A DNA stretch of 32,981 nt. It comes from a virus. The translations under genes were made by a program, and so were the position numbers. The DNA lies in the IMG/VR virus record IMGVR_UViG_3300042565_002211, positions 1-32,981 of that record; one strand, written 5' to 3'. Below the pieces are notes generated by a model. The model was not told the origin of the DNA and did not search any database. It saw nothing but the letters and a program-made list of their open reading frames with translations. Within the stretch, counting starts at the first letter, position 1, and each line of letters begins with the position of its first letter. Of this stretch, positions 2,940 through 21,112 are shown piece by piece.

Positions 2940-4584
2940 AAAATATCAAAAAGATGCGGTGGATTCGCTATTCCAATTCCAGAATGATCGCCCTGGTCAT
3001 TCATCTGTAATAGTAATTCCAACTGGTGGCGGGAAAACTAGAGTTATGGCTGAAATAATCAGACGATCATTTGAAGCCAATCCTAATTGCAGGGGAATGA
3101 TTCTGTCTCATGTAAAAGAATTGCTTGAGCAATCATCCAAAACTTGTACACATTACGCTACCACAACAGGACTCCCTGTTGAGTCAATCGGGGTTTACTC
3201 CGCTGCTCTAAAACGCAGAGAAGTAAAACCTTTAACGATTGCAGGAATTCAAAGTGTGTACAGAAAAGGTGCTGACTTTGGATATCTGGATTTCATTATG
3301 ATTGATGAATGCCATCTAATCAGCCAGAACAAAGAAACCATGTACCGAAAGTTTTTGTCTCAGGCAAAGATTTCAAACTCTAGAGTCAAAGTAGTTGGCT
3401 TAACTGCAACCCCTTACAGACTTCAGAGCGGAATCATTTTTGGGCATAAAGAAAAGACCTTTGATAATTGCTGCTACGCAATCGGGGTCAGGGATTTGAT
3501 TGATGAAGGTTTTCTTTCACCATTAGTTACGATGGGTACAAGCGATTCACCTGACCTAAAAAATGTCCGCATTAGAGCGGGTGAATACTTTTCCAAGGAT
3601 CTTGATGCTATTCTTGAAAACGCTGACCTTGTTCAATCCAGCGTTAAAGAGGCAATCGTAAAAGCATCTTCAAGAAAATCTGTGTTAGTGTTTGCCTCAT
3701 CGATTAAACACGCTGAAATGATTCTTAATGAATTAAAGAAGCAGGGCCAATCGGCAAACATGATAACAGGAGAAACGCATTCAACGATTAGAGACTTTTT
3801 GATTAATGGATTTCGGGCTAACAGTTTTAAATGGTTAGTAAATGTAGCTGTACTTACCACAGGATTTGATGCCCCTGGGATTGATTGCGTTGTGGTAATG
3901 AGGCCAACGATGTCAAAGGGGCTTTGGTATCAGATGGTAGGCAGAGGATTTCGCCTTGCTCCAGATAAAGAGAATTGCTTGATCCTTGATTTTGGTGATA
4001 ACGCTCTTAGGCATGGTTGCATCGATCAGATCGTTGTTGATGCCCAAGGCATAGAACTTCCAGCAGCTAAAGTGAAACGCTGCCCTTCATGCAATTTGAT
4101 ACACAGGATTGGCAATATCATTTGCCCTTCATGCGGTTATTTCAAACCTAAAGAGGAAGAATCTTTATTCCCTGAGAAACTTTCTGCAAGCCAAACTAAT
4201 GGTGAAATACTTGCGGGAAGGCAACCAAAGCAATATGAGATTGTTGCTACTGGATACACAATTTATCGCAAGACTCCAGCATCAGATCCTTGCATACTAG
4301 AAACACACGAAACGCTTGAAGGTAAATTAATTCGATGCTATCACTCATTGAAACATGGACTAGAATTTATAGTTTGGAAATGGCTTAAGTCCATTGGGGC
4401 AAAAGGTTTACCAGACAAACATTGGAATATGAATAAAGAAGGCTTGCAATCTCAAGAGTGGTTGGATACGATCCCGAAACCAATTGCTATTAAAGCACAC
4501 ATAAATGAAAAGGGGTACTATCACATCGATAGTTATTCCTTTCAGAGTAATCGAGTAATAAGTGGGGAGATGGCGAAAGGGTGA
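2932..4584 (+). CDS. superfamily 2 DEAD/DEAH-like DNA helicase with zinc ribbon
   Basis: The 550-residue protein has SF2 helicase motifs in order: an N-terminal LRKYQKDAVDSL Q-motif-like segment, Walker A P-T-G-G-G-K-T at 30-36, motif II D-E-C-H at 125-128, motif III T-A-T-P near 158, motif V 'T-T-G-F-D-A-P' and motif VI 'Q-M-V-G-R-G-x-R'. Next comes a zinc ribbon of two C-P-S-C knuckles near residues 383-401, then a C-terminal domain of unknown role. The architecture fits phage helicases found with Sak4 and DUF669 genes, acting in replication or recombination. The ATG at 2932 is chosen because AAAGGA precedes it and it overlaps the HNH stop; a more upstream in-frame start would overlap the HNH gene further. 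Confidence 0.9.
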   Translation: MLRKYQKDAVDSLFQFQNDRPGHSSVIVIPTGGGKTRVMAEIIRRSFEANPNCRGMILSHVKELLEQSSKTCTHYATTTGLPVESIGVYSAALKRREVKPLTIAGIQSVYRKGADFGYLDFIMIDECHLISQNKETMYRKFLSQAKISNSRVKVVGLTATPYRLQSGIIFGHKEKTFDNCCYAIGVRDLIDEGFLSPLVTMGTSDSPDLKNVRIRAGEYFSKDLDAILENADLVQSSVKEAIVKASSRKSVLVFASSIKHAEMILNELKKQGQSANMITGETHSTIRDFLINGFRANSFKWLVNVAVLTTGFDAPGIDCVVVMRPTMSKGLWYQMVGRGFRLAPDKENCLILDFGDNALRHGCIDQIVVDAQGIELPAAKVKRCPSCNLIHRIGNIICPSCGYFKPKEEESLFPEKLSASQTNGEILAGRQPKQYEIVATGYTIYRKTPASDPCILETHETLEGKLIRCYHSLKHGLEFIVWKWLKSIGAKGLPDKHWNMNKEGLQSQEWLDTIPKPIAIKAHINEKGYYHIDSYSFQSNRVISGEMAKG

Positions 4585-9659: not shown

Positions 9660-9968
9660 ATGTACCTAAATCCATACTATCGCCATATACAAGAAATGAA
9701 ACGATTCTATGTTGAATCCATTACTAAGGAAGACATGGCTATCGTAAAAAGTTGCCTAGTAAGAAAAATTCGGGGTGGAAACATGAAAGCGGTAGAACTT
9801 TTTATGAAGTTCACCGAATGGCAAAAAGAATTGGATGCTGCTAGTGATGCTAGACATGAACTTCAAGCCATCATGGGTTCACCTACGGATGGGCTAATGA
9901 AATCGCTTCGCCCTGGATCGATAGGAATTTCCACAGAACAACTTGAAGAAAAGAAGATGCAAGGATGA
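9660..9968 (+). CDS. hypothetical helical protein (102 aa)
   Basis: A 102-residue, all-helical protein with an AGGAGAAG ribosome binding site just before ATG 9660. The segment SITKEDMAIVKSCLVRKI followed by R-G-G-N-M-K-A-V-E-L-F-M-K-F resembles the 'helix, then G-(D/N)-x-K-A' repeat found in the DNA-binding or oligomerising part of some phage small terminase-like proteins, so it could be a second terminase-like accessory factor. That is a weak similarity, and terS is already present at 8422-8880. Its stop overlaps the start of the glycosyltransferase-like gene by four bases (ATGA), so the two are translationally coupled. Confidence 0.6.
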   Translation: MYLNPYYRHIQEMKRFYVESITKEDMAIVKSCLVRKIRGGNMKAVELFMKFTEWQKELDAASDARHELQAIMGSPTDGLMKSLRPGSIGISTEQLEEKKMQG

Positions 9969-10783
9969 TAAGCGTTCCGGTTGCCGTAAACACCCCTTTG
10001 TTCCAATGGCAACTTGATCTATTTTGGTTTAACCACCTCAATGTGTACGGAAATGAAGCATATCAAAAAGCATTAGCAATTATAATTAAAAGAAATCATT
10101 CATCATCTCCAACGATTAATCAATTCCCTTGGCATCAAGATATTCCTAACCAACTCTGCGAATCATTTTTCGATTACAATCTTGGAATAAAGGAAGACGG
10201 AATACTTCTTCCACTAAACATTCAGGTAGGTTTAATTCAAACCATATCAAGGTTTAAGGATGACGATGTAATAGAACTACTAGATTGCGATATGTTTCAT
10301 TTAAAAAAACATCCCAATATAGCTGTAGGCAAAAACGAATTAATTGTTAGCGACATATATGAAAAGTGGCATCTTAAAAGTTTATCAGGAAATAAAAGAA
10401 TTATTGGAAATTATACCGATAACAAAACGAACTATTATAATGGAGGCTTCGTTCCCATCGTTGGAAGAGCAGAAACATTTAAGAAGATTCTTTTGGATTG
10501 GATTTGGTTTCACAAAGATATAACTAAAAAAGAAGTTGATACAAATATTCGATGGTGGGCTGGAATGTACGCTTTACAGGCAGCTTGCGAATGCAATTCT
10601 GTAAAGATGAATTCCGTGAATATTCTTTATGTACCGGGAATAAACGAGTTAGAAAGATCGCACTACATCGTCCATTATTCCGTAGACACTTTGTTTGATA
10701 AAAAGAGATTTCCAAATATAGATGTGAGCAAATTTAAAGACAATATTTACTACGATAAAATCAAGAGTTGGCTTGCCTGTTAA
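9965..10783 (+). CDS. glycosyltransferase-like protein (GT-A type)
   Basis: The 272-residue protein has features of a nucleotide-sugar glycosyltransferase with a GT-A fold: a hydrophobic strand leading to E-L-L-D-C-D-M-F with a D-x-D motif at D107/D109 for metal and sugar-nucleotide binding, then Y-Y-N-G-G-F-V-P-I-V at about 157-166, resembling the acceptor-side 'N-G-G' segment of many such enzymes, and a W-W-A-G-M-Y-A-L-Q segment further on. No signal peptide or membrane segment is seen, so it would act in the cytoplasm on virion proteins, cell-surface precursors or DNA. Phages use such enzymes to decorate capsids or modify host receptors. The coding DNA is A+T-rich. Family-level call only; the substrate cannot be told. 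Confidence 0.6.
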   Translation: MISVPVAVNTPLFQWQLDLFWFNHLNVYGNEAYQKALAIIIKRNHSSSPTINQFPWHQDIPNQLCESFFDYNLGIKEDGILLPLNIQVGLIQTISRFKDDDVIELLDCDMFHLKKHPNIAVGKNELIVSDIYEKWHLKSLSGNKRIIGNYTDNKTNYYNGGFVPIVGRAETFKKILLDWIWFHKDITKKEVDTNIRWWAGMYALQAACECNSVKMNSVNILYVPGINELERSHYIVHYSVDTLFDKKRFPNIDVSKFKDNIYYDKIKSWLAC

Positions 10784-15116: not shown

Positions 15117-15395
15117 TCAAGGGTTTTTGATCAATAAAGCCATGCATTGAATAACTTGAGGATATTGCATAAAGTTATTAGATTCAGAAGATAAAACCGA
15201 TTTAGCAAGATTAAGTTCTGGAACAGGAATTCCCCTGATTCCAGTCATTACATAATCTGCAAAAGCGTTTACCGCTTCATCTCTAGTAGCTTCCCCCTTG
15301 ATAAATCTTGCGAAAATGTCAAGTGAAGGATGCGTTAAAGGCATCCCAGATTGACCACCCATCATACCAGAAGGCATAGACATTTGGGGATTCAT
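15117..15395 (-). CDS. hypothetical small protein (92 aa)
   Basis: A 92-residue protein of unknown family. The ATG at 15395 has AAAGGAAG upstream. The N-terminus is flexible and rich in Met, Gly, Ser and Pro (MNPQMSMPSGMMGGQSGMPL), followed by a helical domain with FARFIKGEATRDEAVNAF and a second helix ending in VIQCMALLIKNP. No membrane segment or signal peptide is evident, so it looks cytoplasmic or virion-associated. It is the last gene before the strong terminator and follows the Cys-rich secreted protein by 12 bases. No function is proposed. Confidence 0.7.
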   Translation of the reverse strand: MNPQMSMPSGMMGGQSGMPLTHPSLDIFARFIKGEATRDEAVNAFADYVMTGIRGIPVPELNLAKSVLSSESNNFMQYPQVIQCMALLIKNP

Positions 15396-15407
15396 AAAAC
15401 TTCCTTT

Positions 15408-15623
15408 CTATCGACCACAACAGCTAGAACCACGAAGACTGAATCGAAGCTTTCCACCACGGAAAACTTTTGTGTCTTCTTTAACTGTTTCAATCTTAAT
15501 GGTTTTTTCGACCTTCTTTTCGACTTGCACTACTGGAGCAGAGCATTGCCCATTAGCACATGAAGAACCCTTGCGGATTGGGAGATCGATTACCATAGCT
15601 ACCGTCAACACTAGACTAAACAT
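15408..15623 (-). CDS. small secreted Cys-rich protein (71 aa)
   Basis: The ATG at 15623 sits behind a strong AGGAGGAAG ribosome binding site and gives a 71-residue protein. A hydrophobic N-terminal segment (FSLVLTVAMVI) fits a signal peptide or membrane anchor. A Cys-containing patch S-S-C-A-N-G-Q-C (C22, C27), a Lys/Val/Glu-rich middle, a basic segment and a final C-C-G-R (C68, C69) follow. Small secreted proteins with this plan (hydrophobic start, C-x-x-G-x-C, V-x-K repeats, C-terminal R-G-G and Cys) are frequent in Planctomycetes and their phages, which is a host clue. The frame continues upstream to 15812 but overlaps the peptidase gene and is rejected. Role unknown; disulfide-linked periplasmic or wall function is possible. 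Confidence 0.7.
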   Translation of the reverse strand: MFSLVLTVAMVIDLPIRKGSSCANGQCSAPVVQVEKKVEKTIKIETVKEDTKVFRGGKLRFSLRGSSCCGR

Positions 15624-15660
15624 ATTGCTTCCTCCTAAATAAAAAAAGTAACCAAACACA

Positions 15661-16641
15661 TTATATCGACCAGTCGATGGTTCGTGCAGGGTATCCATCA
15701 AAATTTGAGAAAGAAAATACTTCCTCAAGACAAATCCTATCCATATCTTTGGCTTTAATCCAGTAAGAACCCTTGGGTTCACCAAAATTTCCCGGTGGTG
15801 TTCCATGAGCATTACCCCATGAATTCTGAATCAAAAAGATTAATCCGAATTCTGGATGGGTAGTAAACCCTAAACACGATTGTTGATGCCCCCATGATTG
15901 GTTTCTTGAGGCTAATAGAACAGCAGGGTTTCCAGATGGCCTTACTTTTAAATCGCTAAATCCAAACCAAGAAGAAGCAATGGTAACAGGGTATCCGTTT
16001 GATAATGCTTGTTTTACTTGATCGCTATTTTTAAGCTTTGAGGTGCTTTTGACTTTGAATCTTTTGGCCGAATCAGAAAGATCGATTGGCGGTTTATTTC
16101 CGTTTGACCATGCCATTTCAGCCTTTGCACCAAAAGTCCAAGATCCGTCTTGCTGACAAACAGGTTGTGGATAGCTTGGATCTAATGGTGGGCAACCATC
16201 TTCATTTAAAGATTCTGCCATGCTTGAACCAAATGATCCTTCGCCTTCACCATTGAGGCCTCCACGCTTGCGAGATTGGCCATAATTATAAAGAATGAAC
16301 GGAAGCCTCCATTCCTCAAATGTTTCCCTCTGGGTGATAATCTCAACAGCTTGAAGGGTAGCCATGACTGCTAATGCACCTTGGCCTACACATGATCCTG
16401 TTTTTTGATCCCAAGGAAAGAATTCGTATCCCGCAGCTTTATTGACTACCTTGTAAAGAAGTGATTCTTTTAAGTCTAACGGAGGCCCAGCAATCTGAAA
16501 AGGAACAAGCTTTGCATTGAACTTGTCTTGAAGTTCTTTGGGCTGAGAATCAATTGGTAACCAACCGAATTTATTAGATTCAATTAATGGTTCTTTTGCT
16601 TTATTTCTTTCACCAAATTTTGGCTGGTTTTCCATACTCAT
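15661..16641 (-). CDS. papain-like (C1 family) cysteine peptidase
   Basis: A 326-residue protein with the complete papain active site: oxyanion Gln79 and nucleophile Cys84 in D-Q-K-T-G-S-C-V-G-Q-G, His252 in S-W-G-H-Q-Q-S-C, and Asn273 in Q-N-S-W-G. The order Q-C-H-N and the NSWG box are diagnostic of C1 peptidases. No signal peptide and no classical inhibitory propeptide is visible; the first 75 residues may be a short pro- or targeting region. The ATG overlaps the upstream stop by one base (TAATG). It lies among small secreted and membrane proteins between the fibre genes and a terminator, where a lysis gene would often sit. It could degrade host wall or surface protein at lysis or entry; that is inference. 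Confidence 0.88.
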   Translation of the reverse strand: MSMENQPKFGERNKAKEPLIESNKFGWLPIDSQPKELQDKFNAKLVPFQIAGPPLDLKESLLYKVVNKAAGYEFFPWDQKTGSCVGQGALAVMATLQAVEIITQRETFEEWRLPFILYNYGQSRKRGGLNGEGEGSFGSSMAESLNEDGCPPLDPSYPQPVCQQDGSWTFGAKAEMAWSNGNKPPIDLSDSAKRFKVKSTSKLKNSDQVKQALSNGYPVTIASSWFGFSDLKVRPSGNPAVLLASRNQSWGHQQSCLGFTTHPEFGLIFLIQNSWGNAHGTPPGNFGEPKGSYWIKAKDMDRICLEEVFSFSNFDGYPARTIDWSI

Positions 16642-17267
16642 TATTTTAATTCCTTTGCTATTTGATTAAATTCGCTGGTCAAAAGATCCCTGAGTTTTTG
16701 ATCAAGTTTAAGCGTTCCGTCCTTCGGAAGCCTTTGATTCAACCTCTTTCCAATTACATCTCTAAGGTTAAAAAGTTCGTTTTCCATGAATTGTTTATTG
16801 ATAGTTGCCTTTGCTGCCTTAAAGACATCTGTAAGAAATTCGTAGTCGTTTTTCTGACACTCTTTTGCAAGCTCTTCATAAAACATAGACAACCACTTTA
16901 CCTGATCTTTGTCTTCTTTTGCTGCTGCTGCTCTGATGTCATTGTCTGGATTTACTGGTGGAGCGGGTGCTGGCTCATCACCGATTACTACAGATGTAAA
17001 CGCTGGTTCAGAAGGCCCAAACTCATTGCCAACATAAGCAAACAGTCTGTACACACCTTCTGCCTGTGAAGTAACCACAAGGGTTTTTGAATCCTTAAGT
17101 AAATCCACAGGGAAAATGTTAAGACCTTTGTCAATTGAAACCCATCTTACAGTTTTCGCTTCAGTCTTTGAAGCAATGCTTATAAATGCCCCTGGTTGTC
17201 CAGAAACCTTTGCAGGGAGTTCTATAGTCGGTATTTGAAGAAATACTAAAAACAACAAATTAATCAT
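16641..17267 (-). CDS. putative secreted protein with Ig-like and helical domains (208 aa)
   Basis: The N-terminus is a hydrophobic stretch without basic residues (MINLLFLVFLQIP), possibly a weak signal peptide or anchor. Residues about 15-95 look like a beta-sandwich, with V-R-W-V-S-I-D and E-G-V-Y-R-L-F-A-Y-V-G-N, followed by a Pro-rich linker P-A-P-A-P-P-V-N-P near 100 and a helical C-terminal domain. This plan (beta-rich head with an 'E-G-x-Y-x-L-x-A-Y' strand, linker, helical tail) is one I associate with planctomycete and phage proteins of unknown function. The ATG at 17267 has AAAGGAG upstream. Its stop overlaps the peptidase start by one base, so the two are made together and may function together. 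Confidence 0.65.
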   Translation of the reverse strand: MINLLFLVFLQIPTIELPAKVSGQPGAFISIASKTEAKTVRWVSIDKGLNIFPVDLLKDSKTLVVTSQAEGVYRLFAYVGNEFGPSEPAFTSVVIGDEPAPAPPVNPDNDIRAAAAKEDKDQVKWLSMFYEELAKECQKNDYEFLTDVFKAAKATINKQFMENELFNLRDVIGKRLNQRLPKDGTLKLDQKLRDLLTSEFNQIAKELK

Positions 17268-17305
17268 AGTTGCTCCTTTTGTTTACGATGTGCTTTAAAA
17301 TGTGC

Positions 17306-17623
17306 TTATAAGAAAACAGAGATCAACAATTTTAATGCTGTTCTTAAAATTATTGACCAAGGAATAATTCCGATTGTAATTGGATTTCCGTGGAAATCAC
17401 CCTGAGGAATGGCTTGTTCTAGGATAGTTGCAAAGTCATCAAGAGATACTTCTTTGTCTTGAAATATTTGCCTATCATCTGGAATAACTTGGTCGGCAGC
17501 ATAGCCAACAATGTTCCATAATGCATTACTAAATTCTTTATTACCTACATCTTTTTTTCCACGAATTTTGTCCACAATTAACATCATGGCATCCGTAGGC
17601 ATAGAATCTGGAAAATCAATCAT
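17306..17623 (-). CDS. small protein with C-terminal membrane segment (105 aa)
   Basis: A 105-residue protein whose first 75 residues are polar and helical and whose last 25 (ITIGIIPWSIILRTALKLLI..) form one hydrophobic, probably membrane-inserted helix. The ATG at 17623 overlaps the stop of the preceding membrane protein by four bases and AAAGGAAG lies just upstream. A C-terminal tail anchor with a soluble N-terminal domain is compatible with a holin/antiholin or membrane-scaffold role, but no family is recognised. Position between the small membrane protein (17620-17889) and the secreted proteins supports membership in a lysis-like cassette. Confidence 0.6.
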   Translation of the reverse strand: MIDFPDSMPTDAMMLIVDKIRGKKDVGNKEFSNALWNIVGYAADQVIPDDRQIFQDKEVSLDDFATILEQAIPQGDFHGNPITIGIIPWSIILRTALKLLISVFL

Positions 17624-17889
17624 TGCTTCACTTCCTTTTTTAAAGTCCTAGTGTAATTTAACACTTCTGTTAAAATCCTCAAGCTTTCCGCTTGGGCCTT
17701 GGCCACCTCGCCAATGGAATTCTCTAACCTATCTATAAATACCATATGTCTTTGGTGCAATGGAAGTATAATATTTTGGCCTAACCAGCTAAATCCTTTA
17801 TAAACAGCCCATAACATAAAAACAAGAAAACTTAATGCCACACCGAATCGCTCAAAAATATCAACAATATTTATGTCTGCGAGCATCAT
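17620..17889 (-). CDS. small single-pass membrane protein, holin-like (89 aa)
   Basis: An 89-residue protein with one strong transmembrane segment at about 15-38 (FGVALSFLVFMLWAVYKGF) followed by a long, charged, predicted coiled helix (HMVFIDRLENSIGEVAKAQ..). The size and the layout of one membrane helix plus a cytoplasmic coiled domain resemble small holins or holin-associated proteins, but no family-specific motif is seen. The ATG at 17889 overlaps the preceding stop (ATGA), and its own stop overlaps the next start in the same way, forming a tightly coupled run 18428-17306. Confidence 0.6.
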   Translation of the reverse strand: MMLADINIVDIFERFGVALSFLVFMLWAVYKGFSWLGQNIILPLHQRHMVFIDRLENSIGEVAKAQAESLRILTEVLNYTRTLKKEVKQ

Positions 17890-18436: not shown

Positions 18437-21112
18437 CTATGTTTTAATAATGTAATTTAACCCAATACTTGGTTGCATATTGTTATGCGATCCACCACCA
18501 CCAGTATTATTATTATTGGTAATAAAAATATTGTGTGAATGGTCTAATGAAGCAGAATTATTAATCCCAATGTTTTGCAGAGCAATATTAGAAGCACCGC
18601 CAGTAAATGTATATGGATTAGAACCGTTATTAGTCCATGCTGCTCTATCTACACTATGATTATGAACTGTATTTGCACTCATACCGCTTGTTATGTTGTT
18701 TGTTCCACCAGCAGTAGAACCAACTGTATTTGGGTGAGTATGTGCTGGAATTTGCGAAGATGTTAATGTTTCGCTTTCAGTTCCAACTGTACCACCTAAA
18801 GTTCTATTTGAAAGACCAGATGCTTGACCCACACCAATTGCAGTTCTTGATCTCATGTCAGGTAAATTAAATGTTGTACTTCCATCGCCTTGCCCATAGG
18901 GGCTAGAAGTCGTTCCTAATGCTGTCCACAATGCACTATATGTAGTTCTTGAAACCGCATTCCCATTAGCCAATAACCATCCAGTAGGTGCTGTTGTTGT
19001 TACCACACCAGAACTTACCGTTTGAGTAATTGCACCAGCAAACATTTGCATTGATGCAGATGGAAATATTGATGAAGAAGAAACCCAACTCGGTGCTGCT
19101 GTTCCATTTGATTGTAATACTTGCCCCGCTGTTCCCGCAGCAAGAAAACTAGTTGCACCAGATCCAGTATTGTAAGGAACTTGACCCGCACCACCACCAG
19201 CAATGTTAGTTGAAGTTGTTGCAGAGGTAGCAGAAGTTGCAGATGTTGCTGTTGATGCGTTTCCAGATAATGTTGCAGTAATTGTACCAGCGGAAAAATT
19301 TCCAGAAGCATCTCGTTGCACAACAAAAGAAGCAGTATTTGCACTAGATGCGTTAATTCCAATCGTGCCTGTTCCTGTTATTGTTCCACCTGTAATTGGT
19401 GAAGTTGTTGCAATTGATGTTACAGTTCCGGTTGTTGATGATGTACCAGCACCAATTGCAGTTCTAAAAGTTGCAGCATCCAAAGAAGAAACTGTATTGT
19501 CAGCGTTAAACCTTGGAAATGTAATCGCTGAAGGATTAGTAAGGGTAAACAAGTTACTACCAACAGTAGTTGCACCTAATGAGGTTCTACCTGTTGCAGC
19601 AACAAGGTTGGTTGCACCACCATCCCATTGCAATCTTTGCGTAAAAGCACTATCCCAGTTTGTTTGGCTTGAAGTTGTTGGTATTGAATAACCAGCAGTA
19701 AAAGAAAAAGCACCAGTTGTATTCGTATATGTCAATCCTGTTGCAGTTGAAGAAAGATCAGTTAGCTTAATACCACCTAAACCAGCAAGGGTATAAGTGG
19801 GAATATTTAAAGTATTGCTTGTTAAAGTTGCAGCACCTGATGAACCAGTAACGGTTAAGGATGTTATTCGATTTGTATATGCTGTATTAAAGTTTGTAAA
19901 ATCTGAAGAACTTAAAGCACCTCTATTAGTTGCAGATGCGGTTGGAATATTTAAGGTAATAACTGGTGTAGTAGTTCCTGTTGCAACTGTACTAGAAACA
20001 TCAGTTCCTGTTGTGCCTAAAGTTAATGCTGCAACTGAAGTAACAGTTCCAGAAGTTGAAGATGTTCCAGCACCTATTGCAGTTCTAAAAGTCGCAGCAT
20101 CTAAAGCAGAAACAGTATTATCTGCATTAAACCTTGGGAATGTTACTGCCGAAGGATTTACAAGGGTTAAAATATTGCTTCCAATTGTAGTTGCACCTAA
20201 GGAAGTTCTTCCTGTTGATGCAACTAAATTTGTATTTCCACCATCCCATTGTAATCTTTGTGTATAAGCTGAATCCCAAGTAGTTTGTGAAGATGTCGTT
20301 GGAATTGAATAGCCAGCAGTTAGGGAAAAAACCCCTGTGGTATTGGTGTAAGTTAAGCCTGTTGCCGTTGAACTCAGGTCAGTAAGTTTGATACCACCCA
20401 AACCAGCTAGGGTGTAGGTTGGAACATTTAAAACACCTGATGATAATGTGCTTGAACCGCTGTTTCCTGTTACAGTTAAAGATGTAAATGTTGCTGCTGA
20501 TGGTGTAGGAATATTTAAAACATTAGATACTAAGGTTGCTGCACCGCTTCCAGTTGTAGTTAAACTAGTTATTCGATTCGTATAAGCTGTATCCCAATTA
20601 GTTTGGGAAGTTGAAGTTGGAATTGAATAGCCAGAAGTTAAACTAAATACACCTGTTCCAGAAGTATAAGTTAAGCCTGTAGCAGTTGATGAAATTGAAT
20701 TTCTTGCATCAGAAACGGTAAATTGAGTTATTAAACTTGAAACAGTAAAATCTGGATAAGTTCCAGTTGCGGAAATCCCTGTACCGCTATTTATTTTAAC
20801 TGTTTGATCTGGTGCAGAATTTGTAACAGTAACAGCACCTGTTGTTTTATCTACACTAATACCAGTTCCAGAAGTAATAGAAGAAACTCCAGCAGTTGAA
20901 TCTGATTTCCAAGAAAGATTTCCAGATCCATCTGTTGAAAGAAGTTGTCCAGAAGTTCCGTTTGAATTAGGAAGAACTAAATTTAATGATGTTGTTAATG
21001 ATGGAGCTTTTATAGAAACAGATTCTGTACCTTCACCATTACTTTCAACGATTATAATTTCGCCCAAAGATATTTGGTTTACACTTGTTTTGTTATTGAT
21101 CTTTATTGGCAT
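18437..21112 (-). CDS. tail fibre protein with tail-collar domain (891 aa)
   Basis: An 891-residue fibre. The N-terminus (MPIKINNKTSVNQISLG, then L-N-L-V-L-P-N-S-N-G-T-S-G-Q-x-L-S-T-D-G) is the usual start of phage short-tail-fibre proteins. The body is Thr/Ser/Gly-rich repeats, including two long copies of about 130 residues offset by 207 codons. The C-terminus holds a phage tail collar domain: G-W-L-L-A-N-G, F-N-L-P-D-M-R-S-R-T-A-I-G-V-G, an H-x-H pair in P-A-H-T-H, and several further H-x-H motifs (H-N-H, H-S-H) that could hold metal ions. The final segment G-S-H-N-N-M-Q-P-S-I-G-L-N-Y-I-I-K-T is a classic collar ending. It would bind the host surface. The ATG at 21112 has AAGGAA upstream. 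Confidence 0.92.
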   Translation of the reverse strand: MPIKINNKTSVNQISLGEIIIVESNGEGTESVSIKAPSLTTSLNLVLPNSNGTSGQLLSTDGSGNLSWKSDSTAGVSSITSGTGISVDKTTGAVTVTNSAPDQTVKINSGTGISATGTYPDFTVSSLITQFTVSDARNSISSTATGLTYTSGTGVFSLTSGYSIPTSTSQTNWDTAYTNRITSLTTTGSGAATLVSNVLNIPTPSAATFTSLTVTGNSGSSTLSSGVLNVPTYTLAGLGGIKLTDLSSTATGLTYTNTTGVFSLTAGYSIPTTSSQTTWDSAYTQRLQWDGGNTNLVASTGRTSLGATTIGSNILTLVNPSAVTFPRFNADNTVSALDAATFRTAIGAGTSSTSGTVTSVAALTLGTTGTDVSSTVATGTTTPVITLNIPTASATNRGALSSSDFTNFNTAYTNRITSLTVTGSSGAATLTSNTLNIPTYTLAGLGGIKLTDLSSTATGLTYTNTTGAFSFTAGYSIPTTSSQTNWDSAFTQRLQWDGGATNLVAATGRTSLGATTVGSNLFTLTNPSAITFPRFNADNTVSSLDAATFRTAIGAGTSSTTGTVTSIATTSPITGGTITGTGTIGINASSANTASFVVQRDASGNFSAGTITATLSGNASTATSATSATSATTSTNIAGGGAGQVPYNTGSGATSFLAAGTAGQVLQSNGTAAPSWVSSSSIFPSASMQMFAGAITQTVSSGVVTTTAPTGWLLANGNAVSRTTYSALWTALGTTSSPYGQGDGSTTFNLPDMRSRTAIGVGQASGLSNRTLGGTVGTESETLTSSQIPAHTHPNTVGSTAGGTNNITSGMSANTVHNHSVDRAAWTNNGSNPYTFTGGASNIALQNIGINNSASLDHSHNIFITNNNNTGGGGSHNNMQPSIGLNYIIKT
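19405..20425 (-). repeat. long intragenic duplication in the collar-domain fibre
   Basis: Two copies of about 400 bases (approximately 20425-20025 and 19805-19405) encode near-identical segments starting at L-A-G-L-G-G-I-K-L-T-D-L-S and ending near G-T-S-S-(T/S)-x-G-T-V-T-S. They are offset by 621 bases (207 codons). A shorter unit (Y-T-N-R-I-T-S-L-T ... L-N-I-P-T) also recurs around them. Nucleotide differences are mostly silent or conservative, so the duplication is not brand new. Confidence 0.85.

Follow-up and report, generated by a model that had tools for sequence, protein, structure and literature searches.

The virus record IMGVR_UViG_3300042565_002211 of IMG/VR (32,981 bases, the whole of which is referred to as the window) was found to carry on its minus strand a late-type operon in which the gene for a predicted papain-like C1-type cysteine peptidase (hereafter C1) stands among genes for small membrane-type, secreted and Cys-rich proteins. 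As judged from sequence comparison, the exported-protein and C1 pair of this cassette recurs across otherwise unrelated phages, including a prophage of a planctomycete. The first-pass annotation of this DNA had described the same neighbours, all of which were located, and had proposed that in a host with a protein-rich or disulfide-linked surface the protease might take the place of a standard endolysin. In order of transcription, the operon comprises a gene for a variable 180 amino acid (aa) protein followed by:

17620-17889, minus strand: 89 aa transmembrane protein, N-terminal hydrophobic segment, then a charged, probably coiled C-terminus; holin-like candidate
17306-17623, minus strand: 105 aa tail-anchored membrane protein, C-terminal hydrophobic segment; 4-nt overlap with the 89 aa gene
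16641-17267, minus strand: 208 aa exported protein; N-terminus hydrophobic, followed by a seemingly beta-rich domain, a linker rich in Pro and a seemingly helical C-terminus
15661-16641, minus strand: predicted papain-like C1-type cysteine peptidase, 326 aa; Gln79, Cys84, His252, Asn273
15408-15623, minus strand: 71 aa Cys-rich exported peptide (SCANGQC ... SSCCGR); start after AGGAGGA
15117-15395, minus strand: 92 aa accessory protein, optional
15090-15063, minus strand: intrinsic terminator closing the cassette; stem kept in all close relatives

The 4-nt overlap between the 89 aa and 105 aa genes has a counterpart between the 180 aa and 89 aa genes, the 208 aa gene overlaps that of C1 by 1 nt, and strong Shine-Dalgarno sites precede the 208 aa and Cys-rich genes. 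Translational coupling in the cassette is real, and the single coupled operon of the first-pass annotation stands. For the Cys-rich gene, the mechanically called open reading frame (ORF) of 134 aa was rejected in favour of the 71 aa reading. The 92 aa ORF is missing from four contigs (L008, L010, L013 and L034), and as the terminator directly follows the Cys-rich gene where it is absent, the 92 aa gene is not a core member. The terminator stem has compensatory changes across relatives (CAGGACAC/GTGTCCTG, CAAGACAC/GTGTCTTG, ATAGAACAC/GTGTTCTAT and CAGGGTGG/TCACCCTG), and its overlap with the mechanical 5'-end of the next ORF makes the GTG start listed for that ORF (15103) unlikely. The 413 aa ORF after the terminator probably starts in fact at an internal ATG, that of MRIQPVQG. 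Promoter enrichment was sought in the cassette region and none was found.

Identity and fold of the peptidase

Close homologues of the window C1 were found in about 38 IMG/VR contigs. One contig (G001, 47,927 bases) encodes a C1 protein identical to that of the window and contains DNA stretches up to 99.6% identical to the window, and three others (G002, G004 and G005, 46.5-48.8 kb) have ends identical over 126-127 bases and were therefore treated as complete. A motif scan and two follow-up searches provided a distant set of five phage contigs (L106, L107, L108, L109 and L110), the C1 proteins of which are 24-39% identical to that of the window in the combined alignment. The catalytic set claimed from the first reading was recovered in papain order, with Gln79 as the oxyanion residue followed by Cys84, His252 and Asn273, and is invariant in 23 close relatives, in pPLIM01 of Planctopirus limnophila (NC_014149) and in the five distant phages; Trp275 is likewise invariant in the combined alignment with the distant members and in P. 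limnophila. The ratio of nonsynonymous to synonymous substitution rates (dN/dS) of C1 against relatives was 0.05-0.18, indicating purifying selection on the testable comparisons and hence a selected gene rather than a chance ORF.

As a single sequence, C1 gave no Pfam or PDB match and fell under the detection threshold of PF00112, a limit set for searches and no biological criterion; it is for this reason called a divergent member of family C1. A profile of the close relatives only reached xylellain (3ois) at E 0.0022, and the combined diverse profile matched the same PDB entry at E 1.2e-8, spanning the Cys and His/Asn motifs, with Cwp84 second-best (E 1.5e-4) and cathepsins at about 1e-3. The AlphaFold2 model built on the combined alignment had a predicted local distance difference test score (pLDDT) of 76.7 and a predicted template modelling score (pTM) of 0.81, the distant homologues having raised the pLDDT from the 38.5 obtained with close relatives alone. 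Xylellain was the top match of this predicted model in Foldseek (1e-10) and in VIA (Z 20.8, root-mean-square deviation 3.2, 236 aligned), where cathepsins and papain relatives had Z 17-19. No Pfam match of C1 to CHAP or NlpC/P60 was obtained, and the lists of fold matches were filled by C1 enzymes. On alignment and model, the ORF at 15661-16641 is a divergent papain-like C1-type peptidase of predicted activity.

The protein shares with xylellain and cathepsin-type enzymes the fold, the Gln-Cys-His-Asn set and the Asn-Ser-Trp-Gly motif, but it is only about 20% identical to them, lies under the PF00112 cut-off, is phage-encoded and belongs to a multi-gene cassette. C1 peptidases of uncultured Caudovirales in BFVD (e.g. 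A0A6J5TCZ4) have the same fold (E ~1e-9) at 14-18% identity, and Lysin A entries appeared as weak matches in the fold search. Mycobacteriophage LysA with its N5 papain-family domain offers a papain-superfamily domain in a phage lysin (PMC3314691), differing in that N5 belongs to a larger, multidomain enzyme directed at peptidoglycan. Phage lysins with papain-superfamily domains were already known (PMC3314691), as were C1 peptidases predicted in uncultured phages.

The cassette in close and distant phages

The order of the cassette is conserved in the close contigs of sufficient length, among those listed, as holin-like, tail-anchored, optional HNH-like, 208 aa, C1 and Cys-rich genes; the fibre gene just upstream (window 18437-21112) differs from contig to contig while the cassette is constant. 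The HNH-like ORF lies between the 105 aa and 208 aa genes in many relatives (e.g. L029, 9115-9360), and the window is without it at 17267-17306. The 89 aa protein is kept in all close relatives.

The five distant phage contigs and pPLIM01 all have the pair of exported protein and C1, and the two adjoin in every lineage. L110 retains in addition a homologue of the 89 aa protein (3426-3722, 40% identity, E 3e-20) and a small exported peptide, and the cassettes of L106-L108 include C-terminally anchored proteins similar in size to the 105 aa protein, without significant sequence match. The 208 aa protein matches its counterpart in L110 at E 8e-37 and that in L107 weakly (0.008, or 0.001 for the L025 version), and the exported proteins of L106, L107 and L108 match that of pPLIM01 at ~1e-8 to 1e-10 in pairwise comparison. 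Fold and Pfam searches gave no trustworthy match for this family, which by eye only appears Ig- or PKD-like. C1 is followed in L106-L109 by a gene for a protein with a hydrophobic, signal-like N-terminus and a thioredoxin domain (Pfam E 2e-15, 9e-13, 6e-9 and 3e-5, all above the cut-off); since this protein occupies the slot of the Cys-rich peptide, the position of the thiol slot does not vary.

N-terminal signals of the distant C1s, assigned by eye and partly backed by hydropathy rather than by a trained predictor, are Tat-like (twin-Arg) in L106-L108, Sec-like in L109 and an anchor in pPLIM01. None was seen in the window clade and L110, as would be expected of a cytosolic protease for host take-over; this reading is very improbable, given that homologues elsewhere are exported and that C1 constantly has membrane or exported proteins as its neighbours. 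By analogy, a C1 exported in some lineages and signal-less beside a holin-like protein in others would reproduce the spread found in endolysins. A virion-associated protease, serving tail or fibre maturation or entry, would agree with the window C1 lying between tail-fibre genes, and also with the signal-less N-terminus of the window clade, which is variable and in some members Pro-rich. Such a role appears quite improbable, as in pPLIM01 and L107-L109 the cassette lies ahead of the terminase and at a distance from tail genes, and the C1s there bear export or anchor signals.

The search of phage and plasmid records (50,697 and 72,556, ~123,000 together) gave a single meaningful match to the window C1, in the P. 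limnophila prophage (E 1e-4, 81% covered). The gene matched there is also found by the L107 C1 (1e-8), and its neighbour by the exported protein of L108 (database E 0.05, pairwise 4e-10). Among the genes of pPLIM01 are those for terminase, portal, capsid and tape measure, and an extrachromosomal prophage is reported for P. limnophila (PMC11958385). The pPLIM01 genes run in the order transmembrane/exported protein (21-1133), a C1 anchored at its N-terminus (1184-2218), a small exported Cys protein (2215-2622), HNH and terminase, the HNH gene lying two genes past C1. Beyond C1, and weakly the exported protein, pPLIM01 and the window phages have marginal protein similarity only. These matches support a planctomycete host for the C1-cassette phage family, and the window phage itself may have such a host.

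Outside IMG/VR, the convincing matches were pPLIM01 and one phage contig of the C1-cassette family (L053) binned in a Bacteroidota metagenome-assembled genome (MAG; Flavipsychrobacter, G012 contig 148). It was rejected as evidence of a Bacteroidota host and regarded as mis-binned, because strong Shine-Dalgarno sites amount to ~40-50% in the phages (~10% when shuffled) and 0% in the MAG. Apart from this contig, 198 sampled genomes of the class of Flavipsychrobacter gave partial generic C1 matches only. A match to a Microbacterium phage was antisense within a giant gene and was discarded as chance.

A possible lytic role and its alternatives

That the cassette acts on the host envelope and is itself lytic, with C1 as its catalytic member and a wall or surface-layer (S-layer) protein as favoured substrate, has in our estimate an even chance; lytic role, substrate and window-phage host are all inferences from the sequences. 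One or both small membrane proteins would act as holins or pore formers and let out the C1 of the window clade, which has no export signal and would need them for its exit; in the distant relatives C1 would mostly follow a signal of its own (Tat-like, Sec-like or an anchor), like endolysins. The Cys-rich peptide or thioredoxin would then handle disulfides, either reducing surface cross-links or keeping the peptidase thiol active, and C1 would cleave an envelope protein, most probably a Cys-rich wall or S-layer protein, so that the cell opens and the phage is released. A protease that is exported, or released through pores, would together with a thiol/disulfide protein suit a disulfide-rich protein layer. 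The fuller proposal, in which a cassette spread between unrelated phages brings about exit by coupling disulfide reduction to the proteolysis of a protein-based planctomycete wall and dispenses with a murein hydrolase, is possible if somewhat doubtful.

The first-pass annotation had seen no recognisable wall enzyme in the window, and this now extends to near-complete and complete relatives. By Pfam, no murein hydrolase was found in G002 among the proteins of 70 aa or more other than one 1724 aa fibre ORF, nor in pPLIM01 among the best 25 of 39 families (down to E 3.5e-4), nor among the matches listed in G016 and the scanned parts of G014 and G017. No conventional endolysin was recognised in the complete relatives, and within the scans made the genome appears to have no recognisable envelope enzyme other than C1. 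Single window proteins gave almost no Pfam or PHROGs matches; one to the 'endolysin' family phrog_971 (E 0.0026) was rejected, as it maps to the body of the window tape-measure protein.

C1 and its redox partner might instead be helpers that strip an outer protein layer, comparable to LysB or spanins, while an unrecognised murein endolysin cuts the peptidoglycan. P. limnophila peptidoglycan is opened by lysozyme (PMC4432640), and the majority of phage proteins have no family match, leaving room for a cryptic enzyme; we consider this division of labour unlikely, since no murein-hydrolase family occurs among the matches in near-complete and complete relatives and the sole endolysin-labelled PHROG match is the tape-measure one. 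One planctomycete phage on record is chronically released without lysis (PMC10945688), so that exit by lysis is not to be assumed. A periplasmic or surface protease active during infection and not at exit, by receptor stripping (superinfection exclusion) or surface remodelling, would be served equally by the predicted export signals and thiol partner, which fit any periplasmic function, and by the maintenance of pPLIM01 as an extrachromosomal prophage (PMC11958385). It is rather improbable, as the window-clade C1 lies in a late-type, terminator-closed operon behind tail genes and beside holin-like proteins.

Several observations weigh against a lytic cassette directed at a planctomycete protein layer. 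P. limnophila sacculi contain lysozyme-sensitive peptidoglycan with diaminopimelic acid (PMC4432640), and a hidden endolysin in these phages is therefore possible. The holin candidates are small conserved proteins with one hydrophobic segment each and no holin family match (Pfam, PHROGs), the 89 aa protein having no Pfam match at all. To these are added the missing export signal of the window clade, the placement of the window cassette among tail genes, where a virion role is possible, and the GC content, 38% in the phage (G001) and 57% in pPLIM01, so that the window host may belong to another lineage. The proposal of the first-pass annotation accordingly survives in part: the C1 identity, the gene order, the planctomycete match and the lack of a recognisable endolysin hold, but given the peptidoglycan of P. 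limnophila (PMC4432640) an enzyme that cuts it would still be expected and may have escaped recognition. Its protein-rich or disulfide-linked surface fits the exported thioredoxin in the slot of the distant relatives. On the side of a protein layer, Cys-rich YTV proteins are present in wall preparations of planctomycetes, and most Planctomycetales reportedly lack the genes for peptidoglycan synthesis (PMC8567305).

The cassette resembles canonical lysis cassettes of holin, endolysin and spanins in that small membrane proteins adjoin an envelope enzyme, which may or may not have an export signal, and in its location after tail genes or before the terminase; it differs in having a C1-type protease in place of a murein hydrolase, and in the thioredoxin or Cys-rich partner. 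Cwp84, a surface cysteine protease that processes the S-layer, is a functional analogue as a surface-layer protease, but is bacterial and not phage-encoded. Pseudomurein endoisopeptidases PeiW and PeiP are viral cysteine peptidases that lyse a non-murein wall; they differ from the window C1 in family (C71), substrate and archaeal hosts. The literature searched contained no cassette, conserved across unrelated phages, in which an exported C1-type protease is paired with thioredoxin or a Cys-rich protein, no account of the C1 cassette in the P. limnophila prophage and none of how phages breach planctomycete cells.

It is a long-standing dispute whether protein or peptidoglycan forms the load-bearing layer of planctomycetes. 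If the lytic reading is true, a cassette of protease and thiol/disulfide protein would show, independently and by function, which layer needs breakage, and would supply enzymes for opening planctomycete cells. Genetic tools exist for P. limnophila (PMC11958385), and with a homologue on the prophage of this tractable species the question is directly testable.

Two further genes were observed outside the cassette. A 272 aa protein (window 9965-10783), probably the one matching hydroxyproline O-arabinosyltransferase PF23452 (E 1e-4), is present in the window and G001 and absent from that place in G002. L109 encodes at 3377-3772 a short GGQ (RF-1 domain) protein, which may serve in peptide release or ribosome rescue.

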